Source: Bacillota bacterium
Lineage (GTDB): Bacteria; Bacillota_I; Bacilli_A; Erysipelotrichales; Coprobacillaceae
Reading direction: 5' to 3'
NCBI GenBank assembly: GCA_030540195.1
Contig: JAUNWT010000011.1
Coordinates: 1 to 43,958 of the forward strand
DNA length: 43,958 nt
The position numbers were made by a program, and so were the translations under genes. The notes beneath the pieces were generated by a model. It worked only from the letters and a program-made list of their open reading frames with translations, had not been told where the DNA came from and ran no database searches. Shown here in pieces: positions 4,656-28,500 of this stretch (the stretch's first letter is position 1; each line of letters opens with the position of its first letter).

Positions 4656-5834
4656 CTAAACCATCTTTTCTTCAACTACACGATTGCTTGTTTTTGCTAT
4701 CAATTTCAAATATTCCGTATCATCCAAATGTAAAATATAATCAAGAACATCTTCCTCATCCACTTTTGTTTTTGCTATTAGTTCCTGCTGTAATACCTTA
4801 TCTTCTGATTTTAATATCTCATAAAGTTCATTTAATTTTTTCAATATTTCAGAATTATCGTTTGATTTTTTAACAAGTTCAATATTGCTTAGCTTTATCA
4901 AATTATTATCAAAATATTCAGCAGCGTTTGTATGATCAAACAAACAGGCAACAAATGTAGAATCTCTAATAAAAGATAGATTGCTAAACTTTGATCCAGC
5001 AAAGGATACATGTATAAAATTTCCTTTAAGAGAAACTTTTTCAAAGATACAGTCATCAAACGATGTTTTATCAACATCATCAAAATGAAGAGCATCGTTT
5101 AAAAAAGTACACTCTTTAAAGTCTGTTGTAGCATTCAATTTTACATTATCACTTACAGAACAATCTACAAAATGGCATTTATAAAAAAGCTTATTATTTA
5201 AAAAATCTTGTGACAATTCCTGACTGCTATAGATTTCATTTTTTATAATTTGTCTTTCATTTTCTTCTTTCATTTCCTGATCATCTACCTTTTTTTCTTC
5301 CAACACGGCAACATTGCCATGTTGAACTTCAAGCATTTCTTCTTGAATTAAAATATCTTCAAATCTGTTTTGTTTTTCTACCAGCTCATTTAAATTAACT
5401 TTGCTACCAATTACTGAGACATCCTGCATATTATTTTCCATAAAATCAACTGTCTCAATTCCTTTACAGTTAATAAAATAACTGTTTGCCAGTATTGAAT
5501 TTACAATTACTGAATTATTAAACCTGCAGTTATAAAAGACAGCATTTTTAAAATTACATTTGGAAATTTTAACATTGTCAAATATACAGTTATGAAAGAC
5601 TATTCTTTCTTTAATATCTAAACTTGACAGACTTGTTGCTTCAATCTTACAGTTTCTTAAAAACAGTTCTTTCTTTTTTCCAAGCATTGTATATTTAATT
5701 AATTTATTTTCAAAACATGTATTCTGATAAATATATTTTTCATCAATTTTTTCCAGATGATTTTCATCTACTAAAAAAGGGACTGAAAAATCAATCCCCT
5801 TTGAAATAAGATAAGTTTTTATTTTACTGTTCAT
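4656..5834 (-). CDS. Pentapeptide-repeat-like protein, 392 aa
   Basis: Two blocks (about residues 45-140 and 210-300) show the five-residue periodicity of right-handed beta-helix proteins, with hydrophobic, Cys and Phe residues in the core position (for example FHNCIFDNVKISKCNFKNAV). They are separated by a charged linker that carries a palindrome copy encoding HGNVAV near residues 172-178. The C-terminal 90 residues are helical. The ATG overlaps the end of the VirD4 gene by 11 nt and has a GAGGG site, so the two are made together. No signal peptide is seen. Pentapeptide proteins can mimic DNA or act as scaffolds; a link to the coupling protein is inferred from the operon only. Confidence 0.7.
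   Translation of the reverse strand: MNSKIKTYLISKGIDFSVPFLVDENHLEKIDEKYIYQNTCFENKLIKYTMLGKKKELFLRNCKIEATSLSSLDIKERIVFHNCIFDNVKISKCNFKNAVFYNCRFNNSVIVNSILANSYFINCKGIETVDFMENNMQDVSVIGSKVNLNELVEKQNRFEDILIQEEMLEVQHGNVAVLEEKKVDDQEMKEENERQIIKNEIYSSQELSQDFLNNKLFYKCHFVDCSVSDNVKLNATTDFKECTFLNDALHFDDVDKTSFDDCIFEKVSLKGNFIHVSFAGSKFSNLSFIRDSTFVACLFDHTNAAEYFDNNLIKLSNIELVKKSNDNSEILKKLNELYEILKSEDKVLQQELIAKTKVDEEDVLDYILHLDDTEYLKLIAKTSNRVVEEKMV
5305..5320. repeat. 16-bp palindrome, copy 2 (in CDS)
   Basis: ACGGCAACATTGCCAT within a longer near-perfect palindrome (CAACA and TGTTG flanks). It lies in the linker of the pentapeptide-repeat protein and reads QHGNVAV. Confidence 0.9.
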
Positions 5835-7785
5835 TCATATTTTCCCTCATTTCTATTTCTTTTTTAATATCAAAATATTTTGGTTCTTTTTTAGGAATGT
5901 CCCTTACGTTGTATTTTTTTAAATTCTTATAATAGTTATATTTATTAAAAGGCAATACGTTAGTAATTAAGGATTTTCCTCTATCTCCCATAATCAGTAC
6001 TTCTCCAAGCTTAAAGTTTTTCAGACGATCAACTGTAACAACTCTTTCTTCTTTAGCTTTAGATGTCTTCTTAGTTCCCAATGTTTTTGAAATTTCCTCT
6101 AAAGTCTGATAATCTTTTGAAAGCAAATAAACAAGATTGGTTGCATTAGATCGTATTGTCTGTGCTTCATTTTTTCCATAGGCAGATTCAAGTTGATCAA
6201 ATCCCTGAACAACCATGTTCATCCTTACACCTCTTGAACGTCCAGCAGTAAGAATATTTGTAATTTCCTGAAACTTAGGAAACTGTCCCATTTCATCGAA
6301 CAATATGTTAAAAGGATGTTTCAATCTCAAATTTGAGTTCTTTCTGGTTTCTTTAACAAGACATTGCCAAAGCTGTTTAATAAACAAAGTAACCAAAGGA
6401 TAATACGTCTGCTTTTCATCATGTACTTTCAAAAAAATCATTGTTTTATAGGAATCAATATTTTCCAAATCAATTGTGTTATTAGAAAGAATTTTTTTAA
6501 TTGCATCATTTGTTACGATGGATGTAAGATGTTTCGTTAAAACATTACGTGATGATTTTCTTGTCTGTTCAGCGCTGTCTACGTACGAAGACAATCGCTC
6601 TTTTGAAATATCAAAATTTGTTTTATAGTTTTTTAAATAATACTGAAGAAAAGTAATTTCTGATCGCGTTGTTTTTCTTTTAACTTCATCACCATCCAAC
6701 ATTAACTTATTGATCGCTGGTATATTAACAACGTTTATATTGCCTGTTTCACATAGCAAATGAACATAACCTTCCAGAATTCTCCCTGCTTCCTGATTCC
6801 AAAACTCCTGATCCTGTCCCTGTTTCTTTCCTTCTGTTATTGCCTGTACTACATCACGAAGATACTCCTGCGCTTGTGAAAAATCAGCATCAGTCAAAAA
6901 TGAGTTGTTTTCTTCATTATAAATATAATCATCTGCTTCATTTCTACCTATAAACTCTTTACCATCAAACACGGCAACATTGCCATGTAATATTTCAAAC
7001 TCTTCTTTTCCCTTTTCAAGCTTATTTTTCAAATAATTTTCCTGCTCATTTTTAGTCTTAAGTTGTTTCATATATTCGTGAGATCCCAAGTACAAAGGAT
7101 TCCAGCAGTCACTGTTTTGTGGTTCGATAAAATCAAGAAAATAAACTCTGTATCCTTTACTTTTAAAAAGTTCTGCTGTTGCCTGACTTAATTCACCCTT
7201 GATATCAACACATAATCCTGATTCTCCTGTCATAGCAAGTAGACATAACATTGGAAGTATAAAGCTGAAAGATTTACCTGAACCAGTTGTACCAATAATC
7301 AGAGTATGATGATCCGCATTATCAACATACACGTAATTTTTCCCTGTAACAAAAAAAATACCAAATCCTAAATTTTGTTTAGAAAGTGGTATTTTTAAAA
7401 ACTCAAGTTTATGTTCTTTTGTCCATATATTGATCTGAGTTCTTATATCATTGGTCAAAAACAGTTGTCTGTTTTCAACTATTTCTGCATTTTGATTGAA
7501 AATGATTTTATTAAAGTTTTCTTTAAAGTAATTAACATTTACAAGTTTAGAATAATTTCGGTTATCTTTTCCTAGGGTTTCAAGATTGTTTAAAATTAAC
7601 ATTATTGCAGGTATCGTCCCAAAAGAAATGCAGCCTAATAATAAATAGAAGTTATCAAAAGCATATAAAGGATTAAATGTTATACCCGTATTTGAAAGAT
7701 TATAGGTAATCTGCATTGCTGCAAATACTGAAAAAACGAAACCTGTTACAAAGACATATTTTATTCTGTTATCTATTTTAATCAC
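5824..7785 (-). CDS. VirD4/TraG-type coupling protein
   Basis: A 653-aa type IV coupling ATPase that delivers the relaxase-DNA complex to the secretion channel. Two N-terminal membrane segments (about 10-30 and 45-66) are followed by a Walker A motif GTTGSGKS near residue 165-172 and a Walker B segment ILFDEMGQF near 495. The later motif GRSRGVRMNMVVQGFDQL is typical of this family. A Lys/Glu-rich stretch near 235-300 contains a palindrome copy encoding LHGNVAVFDG; it looks like a tolerated surface insertion. The reading frame opens with a GTG that is itself part of the GAGGTG ribosome-binding site, so the true start may be a rare ATT or ATA a few codons later. Confidence 0.92.
   Translation of the reverse strand: MIKIDNRIKYVFVTGFVFSVFAAMQITYNLSNTGITFNPLYAFDNFYLLLGCISFGTIPAIMLILNNLETLGKDNRNYSKLVNVNYFKENFNKIIFNQNAEIVENRQLFLTNDIRTQINIWTKEHKLEFLKIPLSKQNLGFGIFFVTGKNYVYVDNADHHTLIIGTTGSGKSFSFILPMLCLLAMTGESGLCVDIKGELSQATAELFKSKGYRVYFLDFIEPQNSDCWNPLYLGSHEYMKQLKTKNEQENYLKNKLEKGKEEFEILHGNVAVFDGKEFIGRNEADDYIYNEENNSFLTDADFSQAQEYLRDVVQAITEGKKQGQDQEFWNQEAGRILEGYVHLLCETGNINVVNIPAINKLMLDGDEVKRKTTRSEITFLQYYLKNYKTNFDISKERLSSYVDSAEQTRKSSRNVLTKHLTSIVTNDAIKKILSNNTIDLENIDSYKTMIFLKVHDEKQTYYPLVTLFIKQLWQCLVKETRKNSNLRLKHPFNILFDEMGQFPKFQEITNILTAGRSRGVRMNMVVQGFDQLESAYGKNEAQTIRSNATNLVYLLSKDYQTLEEISKTLGTKKTSKAKEERVVTVDRLKNFKLGEVLIMGDRGKSLITNVLPFNKYNYYKNLKKYNVRDIPKKEPKYFDIKKEIEMRENMNEQ
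6971..6986. repeat. 16-bp palindrome, copy 3 (in CDS)
   Basis: ACGGCAACATTGCCAT inside the coupling-protein gene, reading HGNVAV near residues 267-273, between the two Walker motifs. Confidence 0.9.
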
Positions 7786-9184: not shown

Positions 9185-9463
9185 ATGGATGAAAGAAAAA
9201 TAATATTTGAAGTCTACGATGAAATAGATAAAATAGCTTACACATTGAATGGAATATATCAGACACTTTACAGTATGGATTTAGAAACGCTTACTTCGTT
9301 TGTCGATGGTCAAGGAAAAGCTTCTAAAGCATTTCTATGTGATCAGTTAAGCTATAATATTTCAAAGCTTAATGAGTATAATGAAAAACTGTATGACGTT
9401 TTACATAAGTCTGTATTCGATTTAACTGATGACATTGACGATATAGAATCATCAAACGATTAG
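9185..9463 (+). CDS. Small acidic helical protein, 92 aa
   Basis: A strong AAGGAGG site precedes the ATG. The protein is acidic and helical with no membrane segment, ending in DDIDDIESSND. It runs opposite to its surroundings, and its last 12 bases overlap the end of the relaxase gene in a convergent arrangement. Upstream, TTCTTTTCAAAAGAA forms an inverted repeat that might be an operator. No family is recognised. Confidence 0.55.
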   Translation: MDERKIIFEVYDEIDKIAYTLNGIYQTLYSMDLETLTSFVDGQGKASKAFLCDQLSYNISKLNEYNEKLYDVLHKSVFDLTDDIDDIESSND

Positions 9464-10597
9464 ATTGCTTTCCATACGTTTGTAGTACTCATCAATGGAT
9501 TTATTTATATTATTTTGTTGTTCAAGAGCAACACTGTAAATAAATCCTTCCAGTCTTTTTTCATTAAGATATTTAACTTTCCTTATTGTTTTTGTCTCCT
9601 TCTTCACCTTTACCTTCTCAGTTTTTTTATAATTCTTTAAGATATGGTTTCCAATTCTTTCATGCAGTTTATTTAACTCTGCTTCTTTCAATGTCGAAAT
9701 GCCAGCTGATTCATCATTCATAACTCCTTCTAAAACATCAATTCTTTCTAATAAAATGTCATATTGTTTTTTCAGATCAGGACTGTTAAAAATAATGTCA
9801 TCTATTATTCCGTCAATGACGGGTTTAAAATCTTTCATATTGTATGAGTTGTATTGCAGTCTTCCCGTTTTAGGTAAAGCATCCAACAACTGATTTAATG
9901 TTTTCACATTTGATAAATCTTTCCCTTTAACAAGTGTCACGAGCTGATTAAATTCCTGATCCTTGATTTTAAAATACTCTCTGTAATCATATCCCGTTTT
10001 TTCAGCAAGCTTTTGTCTTGCAGCAATACAGGTATAAATAGACCTTTTTACATTTTCCAGTTTTGCTTTTGATATTTTACCTTTAAATCTTGTCTGATGT
10101 TTTTCCATAAATGCCAGATGGACATGTGGATGTTCCGTATTTCGATGAACATCAAACCACCATAGAACATTATTATATTCCAAATCATACTGTTTAAATA
10201 TTTTTGGAAGTACGTCAGACATAACGCTATTCCAGTTATCTACTGTTTCTAAACCTAGCTTGGCTGCTTCAGTATCATTTTCCAGCGAAATAACTAGATC
10301 CCAGCAGATATTGCCTTTTTTATTAAAATACTTTTTGATTTCCTTTTTGAATTTTTTTCTGTCTTCTCTTGTATTTAATATGCCCATTGAACTAGATGTT
10401 CCAACAGTATGGCTTCCTGTATAGCCAAAATAGCCTGTTTCATTTTCTTCAACGTCTTTTGAAACATCTTTGGCTTCATCTCTTCCTGTATATTCAAAAT
10501 ACCCTGAAATAGAATCCATAGATACTTCTTTCTTCATTCTAGAATTAGCTGGTGGATTATAACCATTCATCATAAAACGTGCTTTTGTTATTTTCAT
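9452..10597 (-). CDS. MobL-like relaxase
   Basis: A 381-aa relaxase that would nick oriT and stay bound to the transferred strand. The N-terminus has GYFEYTGRDEA, and residues about 150-165 contain HRNTEHPHVHLAF, the histidine-rich metal-binding motif of Mob relaxases. The C-terminal half is helical and basic. This combination and length fit the MobL group of Firmicutes; assignment to another MOBP subgroup is possible. A palindrome copy lies in its leader between an AAAAGGAG sequence and the ATG, leaving about 40 nt between them, so the ribosome-binding arrangement is unusual. A terminator-like hairpin lies further upstream. Confidence 0.8.
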   Translation of the reverse strand: MKITKARFMMNGYNPPANSRMKKEVSMDSISGYFEYTGRDEAKDVSKDVEENETGYFGYTGSHTVGTSSSMGILNTREDRKKFKKEIKKYFNKKGNICWDLVISLENDTEAAKLGLETVDNWNSVMSDVLPKIFKQYDLEYNNVLWWFDVHRNTEHPHVHLAFMEKHQTRFKGKISKAKLENVKRSIYTCIAARQKLAEKTGYDYREYFKIKDQEFNQLVTLVKGKDLSNVKTLNQLLDALPKTGRLQYNSYNMKDFKPVIDGIIDDIIFNSPDLKKQYDILLERIDVLEGVMNDESAGISTLKEAELNKLHERIGNHILKNYKKTEKVKVKKETKTIRKVKYLNEKRLEGFIYSVALEQQNNINKSIDEYYKRMESNLIV

Positions 10598-12835: not shown

Positions 12836-12867
12836 AAATAAAAAAAGAATGAACTTAATCATTCTTT
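12836..12867 (-). terminator. Intrinsic terminator of the toxin-antitoxin operon
   Basis: AAAGAATGA and TCATTCTTT arms with a long U run on the minus strand; the stem starts inside the end of the toxin gene. Confidence 0.85.
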
Positions 12868-13160
12868 CTCCTGTTTTCTTTAAACGCTTTTAAATCAAAA
12901 ATAATAATTGTATTGCTATCTTCATGGATTTCATAATATAAAACACTTTTTATATCCAATATGACATACTTGTATATATTGTCATCAATCCTTCTTCCAA
13001 TATAGGGATTATCTTGAATTGTTTCTTTAGCATCTTTCAATTCTTTCGTTAACAGAATTCCCATTTCAAAATTGCCAAATTTTTCAAAATAGTAATAGTC
13101 AATATCATCAACTTTGGCAATAACATAAGGATCTATTTTAACTTTAAAATTTGACCCCAT
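12855..13160 (-). CDS. RelE/ParE-type toxin
   Basis: The 101-aa protein fits the RelE/ParE fold: an N-terminal strand (FKVKIDPYVIAKVDDI), two helices, then NPYIGRRIDDNIYKYVI and YYEIHEDSNTIIIFDLKAFKENRR, the beta sheet and basic C-terminus that form the active face. It may act as a ribosome-dependent mRNA interferase or a gyrase inhibitor; the sequence alone does not decide. Its ATG overlaps the upstream antitoxin gene by 17 nt, the usual coupled order. It probably stabilises the element. Confidence 0.8.
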   Translation of the reverse strand: MGSNFKVKIDPYVIAKVDDIDYYYFEKFGNFEMGILLTKELKDAKETIQDNPYIGRRIDDNIYKYVILDIKSVLYYEIHEDSNTIIIFDLKAFKENRRKND

Positions 13161-14036: not shown

Positions 14037-14240
14037 GAAAATGTAACTCATTTGTTTACACAAATGTGCTACATTTTCATGTTGAACAACTCAACAACGT
14101 TGAGTTTTAGCCATTTTTTCATCTTTAAAATGTACCACTTACGTACTACATGTTGTAGTTTCTCAATTATCAATTATTGAACAGTTGAAAACAGGAATCT
14201 CCTGTTTATAAAAACATTCTCTGATGGTTTTACCAGAGCG
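14037..14240. other. Hairpin-rich gap, candidate origin of transfer
   Basis: This lies in the gap 13943-14343, the largest in the transfer region. It carries, in order: an imperfect 42-bp hairpin (arms GAAAATGTA at 14037-14045 and TACATTTTC at 14070-14078, with inner arms CATTTGT and ACAAATG); AACTCAAC/GTTGAGTT at 14088-14106; CTACA/TGTAG at 14146-14158; AAACAGG/CCTGTTT at 14189-14207; and a bulged TGGT/ACCA stem near 14224-14234. No reading frame fits. Clustered inverted repeats beside relaxosome-type genes are typical of oriT; the exact nick site cannot be read. Confidence 0.5.
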
Positions 14241-14343: not shown

Positions 14344-15642
14344 TTATTGTTGCCCACTTAATACATCACCTTCTTTTTTATTCAGCAAATCATAACAGTC
14401 AATTGAACTCATTAAGTCTGTCATCCACATATATGCAAGCAACGCATCCTTTTCTTCAAATCTTTCAATGAACAAATCACCTTCACGATTATCAACACAA
14501 GTAATTGTTTCTCCATCAAAGCAGTAAAAAACACGTCCCATAATACTTGCTTTGTCTTGTTCCCAAAGATTAACAATATGTGCTGTTTCTTCTTCATCCA
14601 GACAAGGTATATTTTTAATTTTCAGACTTTCTTCAAGCTGATCCATTGTGATACTGTTTGATTCATACTTATCTTCCTGAATGACTTCTTTACATAACTC
14701 CCCAAGTTTATGTTTCAACTCAAAATTACCTTTTTCTAAAACATAGTTTGCTATTCCATCGGCATCCTTAATTGCTTTAAACAGATCATTTGAATTATTA
14801 TTTAATACATTCAGAAATGACTGAACATAAGCAACACTGTTTTCCAGATAATCTCTGTTAGGTTTTGAAACAATTCCTAAACTGTTGCATATGAAAGCTG
14901 ATCCTATTTCAGCTCTTAATTCTTCAACAGCATAATCTTTTTCTCCATATCTGCTTTTTAAATCTCTTTTCAGTCTTTTTGCATGTCCAGTAGAATGCGC
15001 TATTTCATGATAAGTATCCGAGAAAAAGGCTTCTTCATCTATATAACGATGCCTGTCAGGTACAACAACTTTATCTTCTGACGGCTGGTAATATGGTGTA
15101 TTTACCCCATCATCTTCAATCATTTTTAAATCTGTATTCTCACAAAAGTCATTCATTACTGATAAAGGTATTTCATACTTTTCTTCATCAAATGCTATAT
15201 TTTTATTCTGATTTTTATAAGGTGGTATACCTTCCATCTGTGTTGCGTTAAATACAGTATAAACTCGACAGATATACGTGATATCTTTTGATCTTTCCTT
15301 ATCTTCTTCAATAATTCTTTTTGCTTCCGCACTGGTAATTGATTTTCTATTTTTATTATCATAAAGACTCCAGTACTCTATAGGAACACCTTTACTTCCT
15401 TTTTTTATAAGATATCCTTTTGAACTTGCCTGATTGAAAGTCATCCAACGTGGATCCTTATAACCATTAACATACTCGTTCATATAAAGAATAAAACGAT
15501 TGCTGTTACGATAAACGGTATTGGTTATAGGATTGAAACTTGGTTCTGCTGGCATAAATCCCTGATACCATGGAATCTTTCCTTTATTAAGACAGCCAAT
15601 AAATAGTTCTACAACTTGCTGTCTTGCCTTATTCATTTTCAT
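14344..15642 (-). CDS. ArdC-like antirestriction/ssDNA-binding metalloprotease-fold protein
   Basis: The 432-aa protein has an N-terminal ArdC/DUF1738-type ssDNA-binding domain (about 1-130, with KIPWYQGFMPAEPSFNPITN and RWMTFNQASSKGYLIKKGSKG) and a zincin-like domain with HEIAHSTGH near residue 212-220. ArdC proteins of plasmids protect entering single-stranded DNA from host restriction. The C-terminal part (about 330-425) is an extra helical extension without a motif I recognise. It starts inside the end of the small acidic gene upstream and is the last gene before the candidate oriT, so it would be among the first leftward-operon products affected by transfer. Confidence 0.82.
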   Translation of the reverse strand: MKMNKARQQVVELFIGCLNKGKIPWYQGFMPAEPSFNPITNTVYRNSNRFILYMNEYVNGYKDPRWMTFNQASSKGYLIKKGSKGVPIEYWSLYDNKNRKSITSAEAKRIIEEDKERSKDITYICRVYTVFNATQMEGIPPYKNQNKNIAFDEEKYEIPLSVMNDFCENTDLKMIEDDGVNTPYYQPSEDKVVVPDRHRYIDEEAFFSDTYHEIAHSTGHAKRLKRDLKSRYGEKDYAVEELRAEIGSAFICNSLGIVSKPNRDYLENSVAYVQSFLNVLNNNSNDLFKAIKDADGIANYVLEKGNFELKHKLGELCKEVIQEDKYESNSITMDQLEESLKIKNIPCLDEEETAHIVNLWEQDKASIMGRVFYCFDGETITCVDNREGDLFIERFEEKDALLAYMWMTDLMSSIDCYDLLNKKEGDVLSGQQ

Positions 15643-15763
15643 TGTTTATCAACTCATCTTTCCTATAAACAGTCTCATATGAAGGAATTTCCATTAAAAA
15701 AGGATTATCCTCATCAAAGGGATAATCCTCAATAATTGTATTTATATCATTAAAATCATTCAT
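15629..15763 (-). CDS. Small acidic protein, 44 aa
   Basis: The ATG at 15763 opens a frame rich in Asp, Glu and Asn (NTIIEDYPFDEDNPFLMEIP). It begins 4 bp after the stop of the last DprA-like gene and overlaps the ArdC-like gene by 14 nt, which favours a real coupled gene. The ribosome-binding site is weak. Acidity and position suggest a partner of the ArdC-like protein, but this is a guess. Confidence 0.45.
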   Translation of the reverse strand: MNDFNDINTIIEDYPFDEDNPFLMEIPSYETVYRKDELINNENE

Positions 15764-15767
15764 ATTA

Positions 15768-16259
15768 TTATACCAACGAATTTTCCATTTCTTTGCTTTT
15801 TGAATAATCAACAAATTTATAATGTGGATTACGCTCAATAAAATTTTCAACTACAAAAGATAAATCACTTTCATCCTCTACTCCTATGCAATAATCCATT
15901 TGACCATTATTTTCTTCTAAAGCAAAAAAACATCTATGATAGTTTTCCTCATCTACAGGCAAAGATATTTGAATTCCTTTTTTATCCATAAGTTCTAGAT
16001 TTCCTTCATAATAGAGTACAAATGGTGGATTAGGAATTTCTTTAAGTGGTGAAGGATATTTATCGGATAAGATTGTTTCGTTCATCTCTTCAACATCTTC
16101 CAAATATAGTTTGATATCTTTATTTGTAAGTCTTTCCTTTTCCCTTAATGCTTCTAAAATTTTAAAAAAATGACCATGATATTTTTGAGAAAAAGCAACA
16201 AGTATTTCATTCATAGTTATATTTTCAAAATGTTTTTCTTTGGAGTTACTTTCTTTCAT
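15768..16259 (-). CDS. DprA-like mini-protein, array member A (163 aa)
   Basis: Last and most diverged member of the five-gene array. The central motif ILSDKYPSPLKEIPNPPFVL followed by YYEGNLELM is the clearest in the array and closely resembles the stretch of DprA/Smf that precedes its Rossmann fold. The GSR nucleotide/DNA-binding motif that should follow is absent. The C-terminal half has the array motif MDYCIG in place of DWCI. The ATG has AAGGAG ten bases upstream and overlaps the end of the 51-aa gene. The function is unknown. Confidence 0.72.
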   Translation of the reverse strand: MKESNSKEKHFENITMNEILVAFSQKYHGHFFKILEALREKERLTNKDIKLYLEDVEEMNETILSDKYPSPLKEIPNPPFVLYYEGNLELMDKKGIQISLPVDEENYHRCFFALEENNGQMDYCIGVEDESDLSFVVENFIERNPHYKFVDYSKSKEMENSLV

Positions 16260-16401
16260 TAGATTTCATCTCCTTTTTATATTCTTCTATAGCTTTCATC
16301 ATATCCTTATAGTCTTTACTTTCTTTTTGTTCATTAGGACATTCGATTTTTTTATAGCCTTTTTGTTTTAATATATTTTCTAATTCTTTATCTAATTTCA
16401 T
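16246..16401 (-). CDS. Small basic protein, 51 aa
   Basis: A frame of 51 codons beginning MKLDKELENILKQKGYKK, lysine- and glutamate-rich, with one Cys (IECPNEQ). AAGGT lies about 10 bases upstream, and its last 14 nt overlap the start of array member A, whose ribosome-binding site lies within this gene. It interrupts the otherwise regular array of DprA-like genes between members A and B. No family is recognised. Confidence 0.55.
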   Translation of the reverse strand: MKLDKELENILKQKGYKKIECPNEQKESKDYKDMMKAIEEYKKEMKSNERK

Positions 16402-16442
16402 TTTTATTTACCTTATACAGAAATTATCTGTTCCTTTCTTTT

Positions 16443-16901
16443 TTAAGACATAGTTAAATCTTTTTCTTTTGAGTAATCTTTAAAATTAAGTATCTTCAAT
16501 TCACTTTGTACTTTTTCAATTAAGTCATTCAAATGTTCCTGATTTTCGCACCCAATCATCCAATCACATTCACCATTTTCATCTTCGGCTACAAATAAGA
16601 ATCCTCTTTTTTCAGTACCAAACAATCCATTAAAAATTAGCAGATCTGCATTATTACAGATATCCAATTTACCATCATAGAAAACCACAACAGGTGGCTT
16701 ATTTTCTACTTTCAATGCTCTAGGATAATCAGATGAGTTATGTGTTACATATTTTTCAGTTGCACTGTTTATATATCCAAATAATTCATCCGCTTCCATG
16801 ACTCTGTTATTCATCATTGCATCTGCTACCTTCTCTAAATCATTGTCATATTTCATTGCCAGTGCAAAAACAATTTCATCATCCGTAATGTCATCTTTCA
16901 T
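16443..16901 (-). CDS. DprA-like mini-protein, array member B (152 aa)
   Basis: The layout is the same as in the other members: an N-terminal helical part of about 50 residues (ITDDEIVFALAMKYDNDLEKV), then NSSDYPRALKVENKPPVVVF and YDGKLDI, then a C-terminal half with CDWMIG and the ending KDYSKEKDLTMS. GAGGTG precedes the ATG, and the gene starts 12 bp after the stop of member C. The DprA-like Rossmann motif is missing. Confidence 0.72.
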   Translation of the reverse strand: MKDDITDDEIVFALAMKYDNDLEKVADAMMNNRVMEADELFGYINSATEKYVTHNSSDYPRALKVENKPPVVVFYDGKLDICNNADLLIFNGLFGTEKRGFLFVAEDENGECDWMIGCENQEHLNDLIEKVQSELKILNFKDYSKEKDLTMS

Positions 16902-16913
16902 TTCTTCACCTCA

Positions 16914-17366
16914 TCAATTCAATACAGCGCTTTGGGGCTGTTTATATTTTTTAAACTCTAAATTATCATTTCTTTCAAATACTTCTTCAACTACAGGCTG
17001 AAGAACTTCTTGATCTGTAGTGGCAACACACCATTCTGCTTCATCACCTTTATTAACTATTCCAATAAAAATCTTGTCTGCTTTATTAACAACACTTTCA
17101 TAAACATGTATATCTTTTTGAAATACATCAAGATCACCATCGTAAAACAGACACACTGGTGGATCATCAAGACCCCCAAGTATAACGGGGTAGTCATCTG
17201 AAAGAAAAGAAATATAATTTTCATGCACTTCATTTAAGTAATATTCTTTTTCCTTGTCTGTCATAAAAATTTTTTTATCGATTACATCATCTATAATCTC
17301 AGTACTGTTTCCAAACTTCTGACAGAGTGCAACAAGAATGTCATCACTTGTAAATTTATCATTCAT
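16914..17366 (-). CDS. DprA-like mini-protein, array member C (150 aa)
   Basis: Start chosen at 17366 (MNDKFTSDD) because AAAAGGA lies just upstream; an ATG at 17384 is in frame but overlaps the end of member D. It carries FLSDDYPVILGGLDDPPVCL then FYDGDLDVF and the C-terminal motif AEWCVA. The ending differs slightly (KQPQSAVLN). It is separated from D by 17 bp, with no promoter or terminator between them, so the array is probably one transcript. Confidence 0.72.
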   Translation of the reverse strand: MNDKFTSDDILVALCQKFGNSTEIIDDVIDKKIFMTDKEKEYYLNEVHENYISFLSDDYPVILGGLDDPPVCLFYDGDLDVFQKDIHVYESVVNKADKIFIGIVNKGDEAEWCVATTDQEVLQPVVEEVFERNDNLEFKKYKQPQSAVLN

Positions 17367-17383
17367 TTTAATTTTCCTTTTCA

Positions 17384-17833
17384 TTAAGATAAGCTTAATT
17401 CCTCTTTTTTTACATAATTCTTCAGATTATATCTATCGCCGTAATCTTCAAAAAATTTATTGATTTCAGGTACTAACTGCTTTTCATTTTCTGTCACGAT
17501 ACACCAGTCAACATCATTTCCTTTTTGATTGATTGCAAGGTAACATTTTCTTCCATCTACTGTTTTTTCAAAATAGTGATCACATTGATCAAATAATTCA
17601 AGATTTCCTTCATAAAAAAATACAAATGGTGGATTATCGACCCTATGAAAAAAATCAGGGTAGTCATCTGATGTAATAACAACATATTTTTCTTCTACTT
17701 TTTTGAGTATCTCATCGATTTCTTCTACAGATACTGGTGTTCCTTCAAAAAGTCTTTGTAAAATTACAGGTGCATTATTTTCAAATTTTAAAGCAAACGC
17801 CAAAATCAGCTCATCCATTGTATAATTATCCAT
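17384..17833 (-). CDS. DprA-like mini-protein, array member D (149 aa)
   Basis: The ATG at 17833 (MDNYTMDELILAFALKFENN) has AAAGGA eight bases upstream; the longer frame would need a TTG. The motif TSDDYPDFFHRVDNPPFVF then FYEGNLELF is followed by the C-terminal VDWCIV and the ending KEELSLS. It is closest to member E by eye. Confidence 0.72.
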   Translation of the reverse strand: MDNYTMDELILAFALKFENNAPVILQRLFEGTPVSVEEIDEILKKVEEKYVVITSDDYPDFFHRVDNPPFVFFYEGNLELFDQCDHYFEKTVDGRKCYLAINQKGNDVDWCIVTENEKQLVPEINKFFEDYGDRYNLKNYVKKEELSLS

Positions 17834-17851
17834 AAAATCATTCCTTTCCAA

Positions 17852-18316
17852 TTATGATAAATTCAATTCATTCTTATTCGCATATTTTTTAAAATCTAAA
17901 TCTTCTTCTAAATCATTTAAAAATTTATTAACTACTGGCAAAAGGTCTTCTTCATGAGTGACCGCAATACACCAGTCCACTTCATTTCCACCATCTTCTG
18001 ATACTGCCAGATAGAAATCTTTTGTTGAATCCAAAGGATTTTCAAAAGTTGCTCCATTATTATTGAACAATTCTAGATTTCCCTCGTAAAACAGAGCAAA
18101 TGGTGGCTGAGAGAAATTTCTAAAATACTCTGGATAGTCATTTGAAAACAATATGACATATTTTTCTTCGACATCTTTCATATATTTTTCAACTTCCTCA
18201 TAATTGATTTTTGCACCTTTTTTCATTTCACCTAAAATTGTTTCAAAATCGTTATCATATTTTAATACGAATGTCAGAAAATATTTTTCTTCTTCTTTGC
18301 TAAAAATCGTAATCAC
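17852..18316 (-). CDS. DprA-like mini-protein, array member E (154 aa)
   Basis: First gene of the array, just after the terminator of the secretion operon, so a promoter should lie in 18317-18350. It has FSNDYPEYFRNFSQPPFAL then FYEGNLELF, the C-terminal VDWCIAVT and the ending KNELNLS. The only standard start is a GTG fused to its GGAG ribosome-binding site; an ATT a few codons downstream would have normal spacing. The start is therefore uncertain. Confidence 0.7.
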   Translation of the reverse strand: MITIFSKEEEKYFLTFVLKYDNDFETILGEMKKGAKINYEEVEKYMKDVEEKYVILFSNDYPEYFRNFSQPPFALFYEGNLELFNNNGATFENPLDSTKDFYLAVSEDGGNEVDWCIAVTHEEDLLPVVNKFLNDLEEDLDFKKYANKNELNLS

Positions 18317-18344: not shown

Positions 18345-18381
18345 ATTAAAAGTCTTTTGACTTTGATGTAATCAAAAGACT
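18345..18381 (-). terminator. Intrinsic terminator of the secretion operon
   Basis: Perfect arms AGTCTTTTGA and TCAAAAGACT at 18351-18360 and 18372-18381; the stem contains the TGA stop of the NlpC/P60 gene. The U tract is modest. Confidence 0.75.
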
Positions 18382-19523
18382 CTTCTGCAACTTAACACAT
18401 GTGATTTATAGTAATTTGTCATATTCTGTCTTTTAACTGTATATTTTGAAGAATTTCCTTTGACAGAAGCATTTCCATTTGCGTGTATCATGTAATTATC
18501 TCCTGCATAAATTGATACATGATCTGCTTTCTTATCTCCATTCCAGTCAAAAGCAATCAGATCTCCAACCTTCAGTTCATTAACCGATATGCTTCTTCCG
18601 TAATTTGCAAATCCATCTGCTGTCAGTCTTGGAACTGTAATACCTGCCTGATTCAATGTCCAGTAAACAAGTCCTGAACAGTCAAAATAATCTGGGCCAC
18701 TTTTACCCCACCAGTAACGGCATCCAATTTTTGATGATGCAATGTTAATGATATTTGCTCCAGCACTTCCATCATTACTGAAAGAATAAACATTCAGATA
18801 GGAAAGTACCTGATAAACATAAAACATATTTCCATAGTTCCATCTCCAGTTTCCACCGTCCCAGTATTTATTGATTTGTAAATTAAACATCAATCTTAGC
18901 TTTGAAGCCGTTGAATAACCTTTTTTATTGTTGTTAAAACGATGCTCATAACAATATCTGCATGATTCTTCAAAACTATATTTTTTATTTTTGGAATGTC
19001 TTTTGATAATGCCTAATCCCTTGTTGTAGGCATCAACTGTAGTAAACAAAGCATCATTATTAACAAGTCCCGAAGTAACACTTTGTGAAAGTGCATCCGC
19101 AAAATCTTTGACTCCACATTCTATAGAGTATTTTGGATCTTTGATTGAATTTGGTTTCTTAGAATATTTCGTATTTTTTGAACATTCAGAAGATTGCATA
19201 GGATCATTACCTTCTCCACCTGATTCAACCATCATGATTGCCAAAATAACATTTACATAGTTTGAAACATCTAAGTAGCCATTCATATCCTTTGCACACC
19301 ATTTTTCTACTTCACTTTTATATTTCAACACTTTTACATTGACATTTTCCTTCAGACTGTATGAACTGTTATCACCAAAGATAATATCAACTGTAGTTGA
19401 AATTGGATGTTCCAACCACTCATTTAAGGCAACAAAGGGCGTACACAGTGCGCCCATAAATAAAATAAAGCCAAGAATAATAATTCCTGACTTTTTTCCT
19501 ATTCTTTTTAAAATGAGATTCAT
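18372..19523 (-). CDS. Bifunctional peptidoglycan hydrolase (lysozyme-like plus NlpC/P60)
   Basis: The 383-aa protein opens the cell wall for the conjugation channel, like CwlT of ICEBs1 and Orf14 of Tn916. An N-terminal membrane anchor (about 12-32) precedes a lysozyme-like domain with the catalytic glutamate in MMVESGGEG near residue 97. The C-terminal NlpC/P60 domain begins near 262: the catalytic Cys is in DCSGLV near residue 280 and the His in DHVSIYAG. It follows VirB4 by 10 bp, with AGGT before its ATG. Confidence 0.92.
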   Translation of the reverse strand: MNLILKRIGKKSGIIILGFILFMGALCTPFVALNEWLEHPISTTVDIIFGDNSSYSLKENVNVKVLKYKSEVEKWCAKDMNGYLDVSNYVNVILAIMMVESGGEGNDPMQSSECSKNTKYSKKPNSIKDPKYSIECGVKDFADALSQSVTSGLVNNDALFTTVDAYNKGLGIIKRHSKNKKYSFEESCRYCYEHRFNNNKKGYSTASKLRLMFNLQINKYWDGGNWRWNYGNMFYVYQVLSYLNVYSFSNDGSAGANIINIASSKIGCRYWWGKSGPDYFDCSGLVYWTLNQAGITVPRLTADGFANYGRSISVNELKVGDLIAFDWNGDKKADHVSIYAGDNYMIHANGNASVKGNSSKYTVKRQNMTNYYKSHVLSCRRVF

Positions 19524-19533
19524 TTTTTACCTG

Positions 19534-21414
19534 TTATGCCCCAAAGAATTCTTTTTCTCTTTCCGACATTAGAATATGCACTGGAATTTTCCTATTTCCA
19601 TTTTGAAAAAGGCAGTAATGAGGAAGAAGAAAACGAATCGTATCCATTTCCTGATCTGTTAGATAAACAAGTTTTCCATACTCTAGAATGCCATCCAGCT
19701 CCATGTTGAATGTTACTTTGTAGGTAGCATTATTAAAAATTGCAGTTCCATGTACATGGATTTTGTCATTGTTATAATCTTTAACTTCCTGTGTCCCAGA
19801 GATAGTTACCGTATTGTATTTTCTGGCACGTCTTTGAAACTGCGCCTTTAAAGCTGCAATAGGTTCATTTTGAATATAGGTATGATCTTCATCAGTCACA
19901 AAAACAGTCTGATCATCTGTTGAAAGACAGTTCGACCATGCATATTTAAAAACGATTCTTAACAATGCATTTCCGATGTTATCTGGTGCTTCTATCAGAT
20001 GTTTTGTTCCAAAAGAAACAAGCCCAACTGTATCAAGTGCTGTCATATCAATGTTTGTTGTTCCATTGAAATATCTTGCAAGATGTCCTTCTATCAGTCC
20101 TTCGTCTGTTTGAACTCCAACAAGACTTCGCATCTTCATTTGCAGATTCAAAAGAGCTTCAATGACTTTTTTATTTTTCAAGGCACTGTTTTCATACTCT
20201 TCTAGCATCTGATCAATTACTACTGAAAATGTCGTAAAAGTGGGATAATCTTCAGGTTTAAAATGTTTGAACGATTCAATTCCATCAATTCCAGCAACTC
20301 GGTATGTTCTTTCAGTAATTTCATCTAGAACATTGATTTCATCTTCCGTAATATTTGACCATAGCGTTTTGAACATAATAATCAAATCTTCAACAACATT
20401 TTTTATGGCAATCTTTGTATCATACATCACTTCTTCTGATTCTTTTTCGTCGGCATCTGTTGATACGGGTTGCAAATCGAATATATTAATGATACCTCCA
20501 TCAACTCCAAATTCAATATAATTTCCTTCAAGCTTTCTTGTCAGCTCCCTGTTTTTATTTTCAGGATCTAACCAGATGATTTTACGATGATTGATGATAT
20601 GAGAACATATAAGAAGTGTCATAAATACTGTTTTCCCCATGCCTGTTTTACCAATGACGAGCATATTACCAGCTGTTCTTCCCTGTGCCTTTGCATTTTC
20701 AGTATCATTTAGATAAGCAAACTGATCAAAGATGATTTTCCCACCTGTGTTGGCTTCAACACCAATGAAGGTTCCGTATTTATCATCGATACTGTCATAG
20801 AAAAATGGCCATAATGCTGCACCCGTAAGTGTAGGTAACATAACACCAATGTGATAGTCAACATATTTGTTTAAAGAATTGCCAATAAATAGTGGACTGT
20901 TTTTTTGCATTGCTCCTACCTGTAATCGAGGGAGAGCATGAAGTCTCATATGATTATCCGTCTGAATCCTGTTTTTAACTGCGATTGTTTTTTCATTGAG
21001 CTTTTGAAGATCATCAGCAGTTATATAGATATTAATAACAACATTCATGGTTCTGCTTTTGTTGGCAACCATCTGTTTGATCGTTTCCTGCATCGTATAA
21101 TATCTGGTAATCAGTTCTTCTCTTGCTGTATCCGTATTGGTTTTGTTAATTTGTTCTTCCAAATGATTGATTTCCTTTTGCATATAACTTGCAAAATCTA
21201 TATTCATTAAGGATGTTGAAAAATCAATGTGGTAATCAGGTGAGTTGATAAACTGTGCCAGAAAACCTTCAGTAATTGCTTTAGGCATAGCCGATACAGT
21301 TAAAACTCTTACATACTTATCACCTATAATATAATAAGTATCCTTTTCAACAAGTCCATGAGGGGCAAGTGTTGTTCTTCTGGCCTTTTCAGTTCTTTTC
21401 AATTTCATTTTCAT
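19534..21414 (-). CDS. VirB4-family conjugation ATPase
   Basis: A 626-aa cytoplasmic ATPase that powers the type IV secretion channel. Walker A GKTGMGKT lies near residue 252-260 and the Walker B region VFVTDEDHTY near 508, followed by FQRRARKYNTVTISGTQEV, typical of VirB4/TraC. The start at 21414 has AGGAG four bases upstream and an in-frame ATG six bases later; the longer frame would need a TTG. It overlaps the upstream gene by 26 nt. Confidence 0.92.
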   Translation of the reverse strand: MKMKLKRTEKARRTTLAPHGLVEKDTYYIIGDKYVRVLTVSAMPKAITEGFLAQFINSPDYHIDFSTSLMNIDFASYMQKEINHLEEQINKTNTDTAREELITRYYTMQETIKQMVANKSRTMNVVINIYITADDLQKLNEKTIAVKNRIQTDNHMRLHALPRLQVGAMQKNSPLFIGNSLNKYVDYHIGVMLPTLTGAALWPFFYDSIDDKYGTFIGVEANTGGKIIFDQFAYLNDTENAKAQGRTAGNMLVIGKTGMGKTVFMTLLICSHIINHRKIIWLDPENKNRELTRKLEGNYIEFGVDGGIINIFDLQPVSTDADEKESEEVMYDTKIAIKNVVEDLIIMFKTLWSNITEDEINVLDEITERTYRVAGIDGIESFKHFKPEDYPTFTTFSVVIDQMLEEYENSALKNKKVIEALLNLQMKMRSLVGVQTDEGLIEGHLARYFNGTTNIDMTALDTVGLVSFGTKHLIEAPDNIGNALLRIVFKYAWSNCLSTDDQTVFVTDEDHTYIQNEPIAALKAQFQRRARKYNTVTISGTQEVKDYNNDKIHVHGTAIFNNATYKVTFNMELDGILEYGKLVYLTDQEMDTIRFLLPHYCLFQNGNRKIPVHILMSEREKEFFGA

Positions 21415-22075
21415 ATTTCTCCTTGTCAATAATCAGTGAAACAAATTCATACTGATTAACAATTTCAGTTTTAAAATCATGTGAAATAACGGCCTCATAA
21501 TCGGTGATGGACATTAAAGATGTTGTAAATCCAGCATAGCGTAACATGGCTTCGAGCTTAGAAAGTCGATTATCAACAACATTTTCACTTTCCTGAATGA
21601 GTACATAAAATGCCAGTTCATGACGTTCTTGAATAGCATTATCCATCTTATCTATCTGAAGTTCTGTCAGTTTTTTACAACCAGCAATATCTTCTACTTT
21701 CAGGTTTTCGATATACCTGTTGAGATGTTTATGCAGTTTCAAAGGACTTTTTACAATCTTAAAAAACAGTTCTCCTCTGTAATTATCAAAACAGCTGGAC
21801 AGATTAACAATCATCTGAACTTTCTGCCTTTCTGAAATTGTAAGTATATTAGGACACGACAACTGCAACCCTCTTACAACTTTTTCAGTATCCTGATTTT
21901 GCAGATAAATTCCATAATTATCTGCTTTTTGAATATGCATCCACTCAAGAATGCTCTTTAAATTCTTATCTTTTTTCTTCAGCTTTTGAAATTCCTTTTC
22001 TTTTTTCTTCTTATCCTTTTGTTCCTTCAAAATCTGTTTTTCTTTATTTATTTTTCCTTTTTTCATTTTCATCAT
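21389..22075 (-). CDS. Conjugation-operon protein with basic coiled-coil N-terminus, 228 aa
   Basis: The first 40 residues are almost entirely Lys, Glu and Gln and probably form a basic coiled coil. The rest is a mixed alpha/beta domain with VRGLQLSCPNILTISERQKV and a TSLMSITDYEAVI segment. No membrane segment is present. GGAG lies eight bases before the ATG. It sits between the PrgI-like gene and VirB4 and overlaps VirB4 by 26 nt. In other systems the N-terminal domain of VirB4 is attached; here this separate protein may supply part of that function. That is an inference. Confidence 0.65.
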   Translation of the reverse strand: MMKMKKGKINKEKQILKEQKDKKKKEKEFQKLKKKDKNLKSILEWMHIQKADNYGIYLQNQDTEKVVRGLQLSCPNILTISERQKVQMIVNLSSCFDNYRGELFFKIVKSPLKLHKHLNRYIENLKVEDIAGCKKLTELQIDKMDNAIQERHELAFYVLIQESENVVDNRLSKLEAMLRYAGFTTSLMSITDYEAVISHDFKTEIVNQYEFVSLIIDKEKYENEIEKN

Positions 22076-25567: not shown

Positions 25568-28500
25568 TCATTCATCTTTATGCTTGAAAATGACTAAAGC
25601 AAATACAAAACATCCTAGAGCCATTAAAACATAGCCAAATGCTCTTGTATTATCACCTGTTTTAACAACTTTAGCAGCTTCAGGAAGAAGTTCATCATAC
25701 ATGACTACTTTTTGTACAGCTCCTGTATCTTCTACTTTAAAATTAACTGATTCAGCAATTTTATATTTTGCTGGTGCAATAGTTTCAGTTAAAGTATAGC
25801 TCTTACCAGCTACCAAGTTTTTAATGATATGAGATTCTTCTTTAGATACCCATTCATCAACTGTATTACCTTCTTCATCGGTTACTTTTAAGTGTGCACC
25901 AGGCAATTCTTTTTTCGTTGTGATGTCTTGTTTAGATACTTCTACTTTAGTGTCTTCATCTTTCATTTTTAAAAATGTATCCTTATTTTCATCTGCAACG
26001 AATTCTTGTTCTTCAAATGTTGCATAGCCATCAGGTGTTTTAGTTTCTCTTAGAATATAAATTTCACCTGCAACAAGACCTTTGATTCTATGACTTGTTT
26101 CATTACCTTCTAAGTCGATATTAGAATAAGTTGTAACACCATCTTTGACGATCATTAAAGTGTAATCATCTTTATTTTTAGAAATACTGTAAGTAACAGT
26201 TGAATCTTCATCATCAACATACATTCCTTCAGCTTTTCCATTTTCAGCTAACTGAGATTTCATATCGTCTGTTAAATCAAAGATGTGTTGTCCACTGATC
26301 CATTTATCTACAATTTGCTTAGTTTTCATTGAAACAACTGTTAATTCAGCATCTTTTAATAATGTTCCATCTTCTTTAACTTTTGATACTTCATTGATTG
26401 TATCAACCATTTCAACTTTTTGATTTTCTTTTTCTTCAGTAACTGCAAATACAATATCATTTGCTAAAATTAAACCTGTTGGAGCGAGATCTTCATGAAG
26501 TGTATAAGAATGTCCCTCTTCTAAATTGCTGGCATAATGTTCTTTTCCTTCTGAAATCCATTCGTCAACAATATTTCCATCTTCATCTAGAATTTGCATT
26601 GATGCCCCAACGACTTCATCACCGCTAACCATACTTTTTGAAATGATGACCTGTTTGTCTTTCATATTGACCTTTTGATCAACTTTGTCTTTTGAAACTG
26701 TAAATTCAATTTCAGTCGATTTTACATATTCTTCAGGAGAAACTGTTTCAGATAAAACATATATTTTACCTTCTTCTAAGCCGTTAATGAAATGAGATTC
26801 TTTTGTAGAAGTCCATTCATCAATTACTTTTCCTGTTTCTTTTTCTTTAACTGTAATTGTAGCACCTTCGACTTCTTTTTCACCTGTCACATCAGTTTTA
26901 GTAAAAGATACTTGTTTATCCTTCATTGTAACTGTTTCTAATTCCGAAGAATTTTTAACAGTGAATCTGATATCACTTGCTTTAACATAATCTTTTGCTG
27001 AAACAGTTTCAGATAAAGTGTATGTTTTACCAACAACTAACCCTTCAATGGAATGAGGCATGTCAGTTGAAATCCAATGATCAATAACATTTCCTTTTTC
27101 GTCAGTAATTGTTAATTGAGCTCCTTCAACTTCCTTATCCCCTGTGACATCCGTTTTATTGAAATTAAAATGTGTTGTTTTATTTTCAACATTTAACTCT
27201 TTACTGTAGTTTTTAGTTGTAAAATCCTTTTGTTTGAATGTAAAGGCATGTTTAGTTTCATCCAATACACATCCATCAAGTGTTTTTACTTCTTCAAAAT
27301 AGTATTTTGCTTCACCTATACCCATAGGAAGATTTGAAATATCTAATTGGCCTTCTTTTGATAAAGAATAAATACCTTTTTCAATTTCAGTACCTACATT
27401 GACAACAGCTCCTGAATTTTCAGTCGTAATCTTTTCATTTTTTGCAAACATTAAAGTTCCATCTACTGGTGAATAGATGTTATCCTTTGCCTTCAATACA
27501 AACTGAATTTTAGAAAGATCTGAACGGTCTACTAAATCAGTATCAGTATCTAAATCATCTACTGTCTTTGTTAAATGCACAGAACCTTTTGGCTGTTCAT
27601 CTTTAACTGTAACTGTATAGATTGGATCACCATCCTCATCTTTCGAAAAATCTAATAAACCTGTCATTTCAAAAGATTGTGTTTTCCCTAGTCCAATAAA
27701 TCCTTCAGGAACTTTTACTTCTTCAAGATGATACTTACCAGCAAAAAATTGAAGTGGTAAGAATACTTCTCCTTTATCATCGTCGTCATTGGTATATTCA
27801 GTTTTGACAATGACCACATTTTTACTGTTAGTTGTAAACGTATCATATTTTTTTCCGCCTACTTTTTGAGTAATTGTCTGTCCTTTTTTATAAACTACTT
27901 TTCCACCTTCTAAGATGTCTTCATCTGCTACGATTTTAAAAGAGGCTGAATTTAATGAGACATTTTTACAAGTTTCCTGATCTTTTTTAACAAGTTTTAA
28001 TTGTGTTTCCACTGGACGGTTATTTAAGATAACTTTCTTAACCTTATCTTCATCCTTTTTGATTTCACTTGTATCTTGTGTAATTGAAACAGTGAAATCA
28101 GGATTTGTATAAAAATCCTTTGGTGTTACAGTTTCTCTGACTAAATATTCTCCATAAGGCAAATCCTTTGTAATAGCCCAGCCATTTTCATCTGTGGTAA
28201 TGACATCATAGACTTTTGCACTATCCCAACCTACATGATCAACTTCTGACTTGAGCTTAAAGGTAAAACTAGCGCCTTGTAATCCTTTAACAACTTCAGA
28301 GATTCCATTGCGATAACCTGATTTAAAAATAGTTACTTTTTGTTTCTTAACTTTTTCTTGTACGACCATTTGGTTTGCATCATTACCGAATTGTAATTTA
28401 GCACCTTTATATTCTTTCGTAATCTTAGCAACAAATTTTCCATCAGTTACTGATGTTACTTTACCTGTTGCAGTATCCGTTACTGTTAATTTGTAACCTT

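Follow-up and report, generated by a model that had tools for sequence, protein, structure and literature searches.

Five DprA-derived mini-proteins encoded in tandem beside ArdC on an integrative conjugative element of the Coprobacillaceae

The 43,958-nucleotide stretch analyzed here (contig JAUNWT010000011.1 of assembly GCA_030540195.1; hereafter the window) belongs to a Faecalibacillus-like genome of the Coprobacillaceae and carries, on an integrative conjugative element (ICE), a tandem array of five small genes whose products begin like DprA. The array is real and not an artefact, and the identity of its products, termed mini-DprAs, as DprA-derived proteins that are not themselves DprAs is solid. 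The Rossmann domain, with both single-stranded DNA (ssDNA)-binding signatures, has been replaced by a beta-hairpin-helix of approximately 65 residues. Mini-DprA is a narrowly distributed mobile-element variant of the known DprA family and appears to be new. The genes of the array and two tiny open reading frames (ORFs) associated with it are as follows, with product lengths in amino acids (aa):

17852–18316, minus strand: mini-DprA copy 1 (154 aa; GTG start, exact start uncertain)
17384–17833, minus strand: mini-DprA copy 2 (149 aa from ATG 17833; the listed ORF start is TTG 17851)
16914–17384, minus strand: mini-DprA copy 3 (156 aa; alternative ATG 17366)
16443–16901, minus strand: mini-DprA copy 4 (152 aa; DWMI in place of DWCI)
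16246–16401, minus strand: 51-aa ORF between copies 4 and 5, outside the mini-DprA family and with no family matched
15768–16259, minus strand: mini-DprA copy 5 (163 aa), the copy nearest to ArdC
15629–15763, minus strand: 44-aa acidic ORF between copy 5 and ArdC, with no family matched

The first-pass annotation, which was made from the sequence alone, had described five adjacent, strongly diverged genes of about 149–163 aa, and the ORF listing bears this out: five intact adjacent minus-strand ORFs of 149–163 aa occupy exactly 15768–18316. Its figure of 12–41 bp for the separation of the genes was wrong, as the real gaps range from a 1-bp overlap to 183 bp. Copies 1 and 2 lie 18 bp apart when ATG 17833 is taken, copies 2 and 3 share 1 bp (or lie 17 bp apart if ATG 17366 is used), copies 3 and 4 are separated by 12 bp, and the 183 bp between copies 4 and 5 contain the 51-aa ORF. 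Ribosome-binding sequences can be read by eye before copies 2–5; copy 1 lacks a good ATG, and its listed GTG start has a poorly placed ribosome site. The all-against-all BLASTP comparison gave identities of 27–44% over 123–152 residues, with copies 1 and 2 as the closest pair, and because the E-values (1e-16 to 2e-40) are far beyond chance, the five copies are true, strongly diverged paralogues. The central core S-x-x-YP...PP...(F/Y)Y(E/D)G-x-(L) is present in all five, as had been noted, while the C-terminal (D/E)(W/Y)C(I/V) motif that was ascribed to every copy holds for four and fails in copy 4.

The proposed match between the centre of these proteins and the start of DprA was supported by profiles, by structure and by comparison of secondary-structure elements, which together give good support to a DprA origin of the first ~84 residues. 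The array proteins match DNA_processg_A (PF02481) over profile positions 3–46 of 212 with E-values of 2e-6 to 1.4e-4, which fall below the Pfam gathering score, and TIGR00732 (dprA, NCBIfam) likewise matches only over its first ~45 positions and below the cut-off. Closer to home, the profile of the array matched the host genome's own dprA (253 aa, locus L006) with an E-value of 1.7e-23 over the N-terminal ~80 aa, and full-length relatives aligned to Coprobacillaceae DprAs with an hhalign probability of 99.9 (E 1e-32) over 81 columns, where the alignment stops. The core residues K-Y-x-G and YP/PP/G of the N-domain are kept in both host DprA and mini-DprA.

An AlphaFold model of mini-DprA, built from 23 relatives, reached a predicted local distance difference test (pLDDT) value of 87 and a predicted template modelling score (pTM) of 0.83. 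In a Foldseek search with structure prediction as the starting point, the top matches were the Streptococcus pneumoniae DprA (SpDprA, 3uqz) and ShosA (8zva) with probabilities of 0.94–0.96, and the other rows shown had values of 0.12 or less. VIA-align gave Z values of 3.8–4.2 for SpDprA and ShosA and similar values for unrelated chains, so this measure alone does not discriminate, in contrast to the Foldseek probabilities. The elements of the mini-DprA model (H2-11, H16-24, H31-38, E45-47, H55-58, E66-71, H73-76, E81-84) follow the same order as those of the host DprA model (H2-13, H18-26, H33-42, E46-49, H57-60, E68-73, H75-79, E82-87) up to the first Rossmann strand. Beyond that strand, DprA has its GxR loop and then a helix, whereas mini-DprA has a beta-hairpin and a helix. 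A fold search of viral structures with the mini-DprA model returned nothing at E ≤ 0.001.

In terms of what has been lost, the array proteins have no complete Rossmann domain, the PF02481 match ending at ~46 of 212. The first-pass observation that GSR never follows the core was correct: the canonical ssDNA motif 1, G-S/T/A-R, is absent from 5/5 copies, and motif 2, F/L/Y-x-x-R-N/D (both as defined in PMC9769556), is absent from four array copies. Copy 5 does have FIERN, but in the C-terminal helix, away from the position of motif 2 in DprA. Three ParAB-type or other relatives have G-K/T-R in the loop that follows the first Rossmann strand, and because of this tripeptide the ParAB-type branch may retain residual DNA contact. 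The new C-terminal domain is conserved across the mini-DprA family and was strongly matched only when attached to the DprA N-domain. Two possible sources for these 65 aa were considered and are not claimed: a Rossmann remnant (a loose match to DprA ~137-171, TIAVLG..DYCYPK.., in global and local hhalign, probability 0.1) and kinship with the C-terminal end of ArdC (hhalign probability 0.7, E 0.08).

Profile matches of the window genes placed the array on an ICE, between the secretion operon and the ArdC gene as the first-pass annotation had it. The window encodes a VirB4-like ATPase, a TrbL-like protein, a coupling protein, a MobL relaxase, a tyrosine integrase and ParAB. The features that define this setting are:

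14344–15642, minus strand: ArdC-type antirestriction gene (ArdcN plus MPTase-PolyVal; PF08401 E 1e-21, PF18818 E 9e-31), last of the presumed unit
18372–19523, minus strand: lysozyme-like/NlpC-P60 (CHAP) gene, the conjugation gene directly upstream of the array
19534–21429, minus strand: VirB4-like ATPase, a conjugation gene upstream of the array
5824–7785, minus strand: coupling protein of the same element
9452–10597, minus strand: MobL relaxase of the same element
18348–18384, minus strand: terminator-like hairpin between the CHAP/lysozyme gene and copy 1 (15 pairs, T-rich tail)
14219–14238, minus strand: terminator-like hairpin downstream of ArdC

Because terminator-like hairpins flank both ends, the array, ArdC and the two tiny ORFs appear to form a separate transcription unit. 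Six such hairpins were observed in the region against 1.5 ± 1.4 expected; they come from a consensus scan, which is not proof of termination. Of ten ArdC loci in the family, three lie within 5 kb of a gene from the DprA family, where random placement would give 0.006 per locus (naive binomial P 2e-5); that null takes no account of both being mobile-element genes. A ParE-like toxin gene lies at 12855–13160 of the window (PF05016 E 2e-5).

Copy-number variation between ICEs, which the first-pass annotation had suggested checking, was supported, as single-copy mini-DprAs occur on other mobile elements. A related ICE (L037) has one copy directly before ArdC, and locus L038 has one beside a relaxase fragment, compared to five copies here; no second tandem array was present in the other genomes searched. 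In locus L056 a single 546-aa polypeptide runs ArdcN-MPTase-mini-DprA, with the mini-DprA at the C-terminus of ArdC. Mini-DprA is also found fused to the domain of unknown function DUF3846 (PF12957) at L043:8942-9754, near a relaxase and a coupling protein, and at L055:7949-8746; such a fusion could lend DUF3846 a functional context. A further type, seen in at least 10 loci with varied chromosomal neighbours, is the first gene before ParA-ParB and lies at the edge of other ICEs, often together with a large thioester/SpaA-like surface protein. One such ParAB-type member, on the short IMG/VR contig L036, is nearly identical to one in Faecalibacillus intestinalis. The possibility that the ParAB-linked members belong to a chromosomal, origin-linked parAB operon was rejected, as the module adjoins different chromosomal genes across genomes and contigs L057–L060 hold a relaxase, a coupling protein and a giant methylase-helicase.

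Two large proteins were seen on elements of this kind. The ICE in the window encodes a 1491-aa thioester-domain/SpaA-repeat surface protein (25568–30043), similar to those that accompany ParAB-type mini-DprA elements, and L059:9244-17424 encodes a 2726-aa protein with N6-methylase and SNF2/ResIII helicase parts on an ICE that also has mini-DprA and ParAB.

Strong matches to the C-terminal domain came from ~15/43 Coprobacillaceae genomes and from one metagenome-assembled genome (7% contamination) of a sister family; elsewhere among 295 genomes of the order, the few matches were weak or short. None was found outside the Coprobacillaceae in a 392-genome sample of the phylum. Phage and plasmid records held no stand-alone relatives; they yielded only three DprA matches, in plasmid records.

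In a tree of the N-domain, all five copies cluster with the single copies of L037 and L038 (support 97/81); within this cluster, copy 5 groups with the single copies (98/72) and the other four copies group together (97/79). Because the copy next to ArdC is the one that groups with the single copies, the simplest reading is that the array arose by amplification away from an ArdC-adjacent founder. For the array, ParAB-type and fusion members as one clade, the approximately unbiased (AU) test gave p = 0.467 on N-domain sequences alone. The ratio of nonsynonymous to synonymous substitutions (dN/dS) in close pairs of relatives was mostly 0.12–0.28 in both halves of the protein, with one value of 0.42 based on few substitutions; the relatives are therefore working proteins under purifying selection. 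Branches leading to the array copies exceed the host DprA branches in length, which may reflect diversification or relaxed constraint; substitutions in the array are saturated.

The array proteins have net charges of -15 to -18, and in the loci examined ~3% or fewer of similar-size ORFs are as acidic (-0.10 per residue). Similar values were obtained for the single copies of L037 (-19) and L038 (-15) and for the ArdC-fused domain (-14), with -9 and -10 for the DUF3846 fusions. The host DprA N-domain is near neutral, with a mean of -0.013 per residue. Because the ParAB-linked members (-5 to +4) are not acidic, acidity is a mark of the conjugation-linked branch and not of the whole mini-DprA family.

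In studied systems, DprA places RecA on incoming ssDNA. Its Rossmann domain is the part that binds DNA and forms dimers; the pneumococcal sterile alpha motif (SAM) domain contacts phosphorylated ComE (ComE~P) (PMC4489622). ArdC-N probably binds ssDNA on entry and protects it, and pSa ArdC is co-transferred with the DNA (PMC5512222). Starting from the observed homology, the lost domain, the location on an ICE, the linkage and fusion to ArdC, the acidity and the purifying selection in relatives, we tentatively favour the idea that the mini-DprAs are decoys of host DprA or DprA-like sensors that would act with ArdC on entering ssDNA. Under this proposal, the Coprobacillaceae DprA N-domain (three helices and the first extended-Rossmann strands) would have been joined to the short beta-hairpin-helix, and the single ArdC-adjacent copy would have been tandemly amplified and then diverged on this ICE. 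The array proteins would be made together with ArdC and, in their timing, would act on single-stranded ICE DNA at entry or copying in the new cell. The binding partner would be host DprA or a DprA-like sensor, whose partner surface mini-DprA would occupy; by this decoy action the entering strand would be neither handed to RecA nor sensed. The reason for five diverged copies may be that they widen the range of host partners. A decoy is favoured because selection has preserved a DprA N-domain after loss of the parts for DNA binding, RecA contact and Rossmann dimer formation, in the company of ArdC and with strong acidity. Targets for it exist, since dprA and comEC occur in the host together with a second DprA that is PsyrA-like. 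A broader proposal, that ICEs of gut Coprobacillaceae recruited the DprA N-domain more than once (as mini-DprA and, separately, as full-length or cut DprAs) and that acidic decoys made with ArdC or fused to it form a new establishment/anti-defence class of which the array is a diversified version, is slightly more doubtful.

Several points weigh against the decoy. The dimerisation and RecA-contact residues of studied DprAs lie largely in the lost part, so a decoy must work via the N-domain. The one direct partner documented for that domain is ComE~P, in pneumococcus (PMC4489622); contacts between SAM domains, as seen in a crystal, may offer an alternative route. The ParAB-linked relatives are neither acidic nor near ArdC, and therefore the common function of the family cannot need acidity or ArdC. 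Conversely, 7/10 ArdC loci of the family are without a DprA-family gene, which is therefore not required for ArdC. Finally, the presence of dprA and comEC does not establish natural competence of the host.

The main rival to the decoy is an adaptor, with DNA mimicry next. As an adaptor, mini-DprA would bring host DprA, RecA or the single-stranded DNA-binding protein SSB onto ArdC-coated entering strands, and ArdC would supply the lost ssDNA binding. The direct fusion to ArdC in L056 and the adjacency to ArdC elsewhere fit such a role, as do the ssDNA binding ascribed to ArdC-N, the co-transfer of pSa ArdC (PMC5512222) and the K-Y-x-G and YP/PP/G core shared with host DprA. We consider it not very likely, since the strong acidity of the ArdC-linked clade suits blocking better than loading and most members of the family do not occur with ArdC. 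That same acidity, matched by so few ORFs of similar size, is what DNA mimicry would account for: small acidic proteins would bind to restriction enzymes or to further defence proteins that contact DNA, with several copies for several targets, in keeping with the operon shared with ArdC and with the fast branches of a diversifying array. Mimicry is nevertheless unlikely, because it leaves the conserved DprA N-domain core unexplained, the ParAB-linked relatives are neutral, and no match to ArdA, Ocr or another known anti-restriction family was found in Pfam, NCBIfam, PHROGs or PADLOC.

The presence of dprA and comEC in the host, and the involvement of the pneumococcal SAM domain in competence shut-off (PMC4489622), would also suit a block of transformation, in which the element dampens DprA so that imported DNA can neither delete the element nor bring competitors. 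Such a block would presuppose competence in the Coprobacillaceae, and the ArdC linkage suggests conjugative DNA entry rather than long-term residence, which makes this improbable. That the mini-DprAs are antitoxins or immunity proteins, each neutralising a toxin in the manner of ShosA, PsyrA and RqlI, is quite improbable. ShosA is among the best structural matches and gives a weak profile match, and DprA homologues serve as antitoxins in shosTA, syrTA and rqlHI (PMC9122126), but the matched part is only the ~40 aa common to all DprAs. The PADLOC ShosA matches span 38–57 aa of 303, so the proteins are not ShosA-like in being DprA-like over their full length; the nucleotide-binding Rossmann domain is missing; and the window genes scanned include no phosphoribosyltransferase (PRTase) or RecQ-like toxin, the neighbours being the lysozyme-like/NlpC-P60 gene and ArdC. 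Least probable of all is that the array consists of decaying, functionless copies of an ICE-borne dprA. Degenerating copies do occur on related elements (L157, with an in-frame stop and degenerate Rossmann motifs, and L156, with 97 aa retained), but all five copies here are open and, by eye, have their own ribosome-binding sequences (poorly placed in copy 1), members throughout the family share the added C-terminal domain in conserved form, and the low dN/dS of most relative pairs in both halves already disfavours decay.

The first-pass annotation had taken the diversified array as a hint of exclusion, immunity or anti-defence. The part concerning anti-defence or establishment is supported indirectly, through the ArdC fusion, ArdC adjacency and acidity. 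No evidence was found for exclusion or immunity: the proteins look soluble, no homology to exclusion families was found among them, no cognate toxin is nearby, and single copies adjoin ArdC or ParAB and not exclusion genes.

ICEs also carry DprAs that stand outside the mini-DprA group. In a Candidatus Stoquefichus element (L175:9057-11052), ArdC is followed after 7 bp by a full-length DprA of 264 aa, with GTV in place of GSR, inside the operon of the type IV secretion system (T4SS); four further ICEs with ArdC and this type of T4SS (L176–L179) lack a DprA gene in the vicinity. The ICE-borne dprA at L157:9131-9952 keeps an intact N-domain and resembles a transitional stage towards losing the DNA-binding half, and L156 has only a DprA N-domain. 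In the N-domain tree the L175 and L157 DprAs take their place among those of hosts (rows L122 and L102) and apart from the mini-family. The second chromosomal DprA homologue (336 aa) of the host and its relatives (L185:1315-2325, G000:C75; L039:2362-3354) has PsyrA as its best PADLOC match (E 7e-48) and adjoins a gene for a rhomboid-like membrane protein; no RecQ or PRTase toxin was present in the ~1.3 kb examined beside it.

Compared to known systems, mini-DprA resembles DprA/Smf (PF02481, TIGR00732; 3uqz) in its N-terminal helical domain, first extended-Rossmann strands and YP...PP...Y.GNL core, and differs in lacking ssDNA motifs 1 and 2, the RecA contact and the dimer interface, in its ~65-aa beta-hairpin-helix, and in being encoded on ICEs, in several copies. 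Like the ShosA, PsyrA and RqlI antitoxins and the DprA-PRTase pair that protects against phages (PMC9122126), it is DprA-derived and would act outside transformation, in mobile-element conflict, but those antitoxins keep a full Rossmann domain and pair with a toxin, and mini-DprA has neither. The L056 protein, with mini-DprA as the C-terminal domain of an ArdC-MPTase, has the architecture of the polyvalent proteins (PF08401 plus PF18818); the text of the survey of these proteins (PMC5512222) names DprA once, for host uptake systems, and describes no DprA-derived domain. The DUF3846 mobile-element proteins are fused to mini-DprA in L043 and L055 and are absent from the array, and the strong negative charge of the array proteins is shared with ArdA/Ocr-like DNA mimics. 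The papers searched for DprA with ArdC, the leading region or conjugative elements described no such proteins.

DprA relatives are known in toxin-antitoxin and anti-phage systems, and a DprA-derived module of conjugative elements was not met in the papers searched. Because its relatives occur on other mobile elements, the array probably helps an incoming element to survive in a new host. A DprA N-domain without the DNA-binding half, found with ArdC, would give a direct handle on the role of the N-domain, and with five diverged copies, partner specificity could be tested one gene at a time. The mini-DprAs would also show whether conjugative elements must evade DprA when they enter a cell as a single strand.

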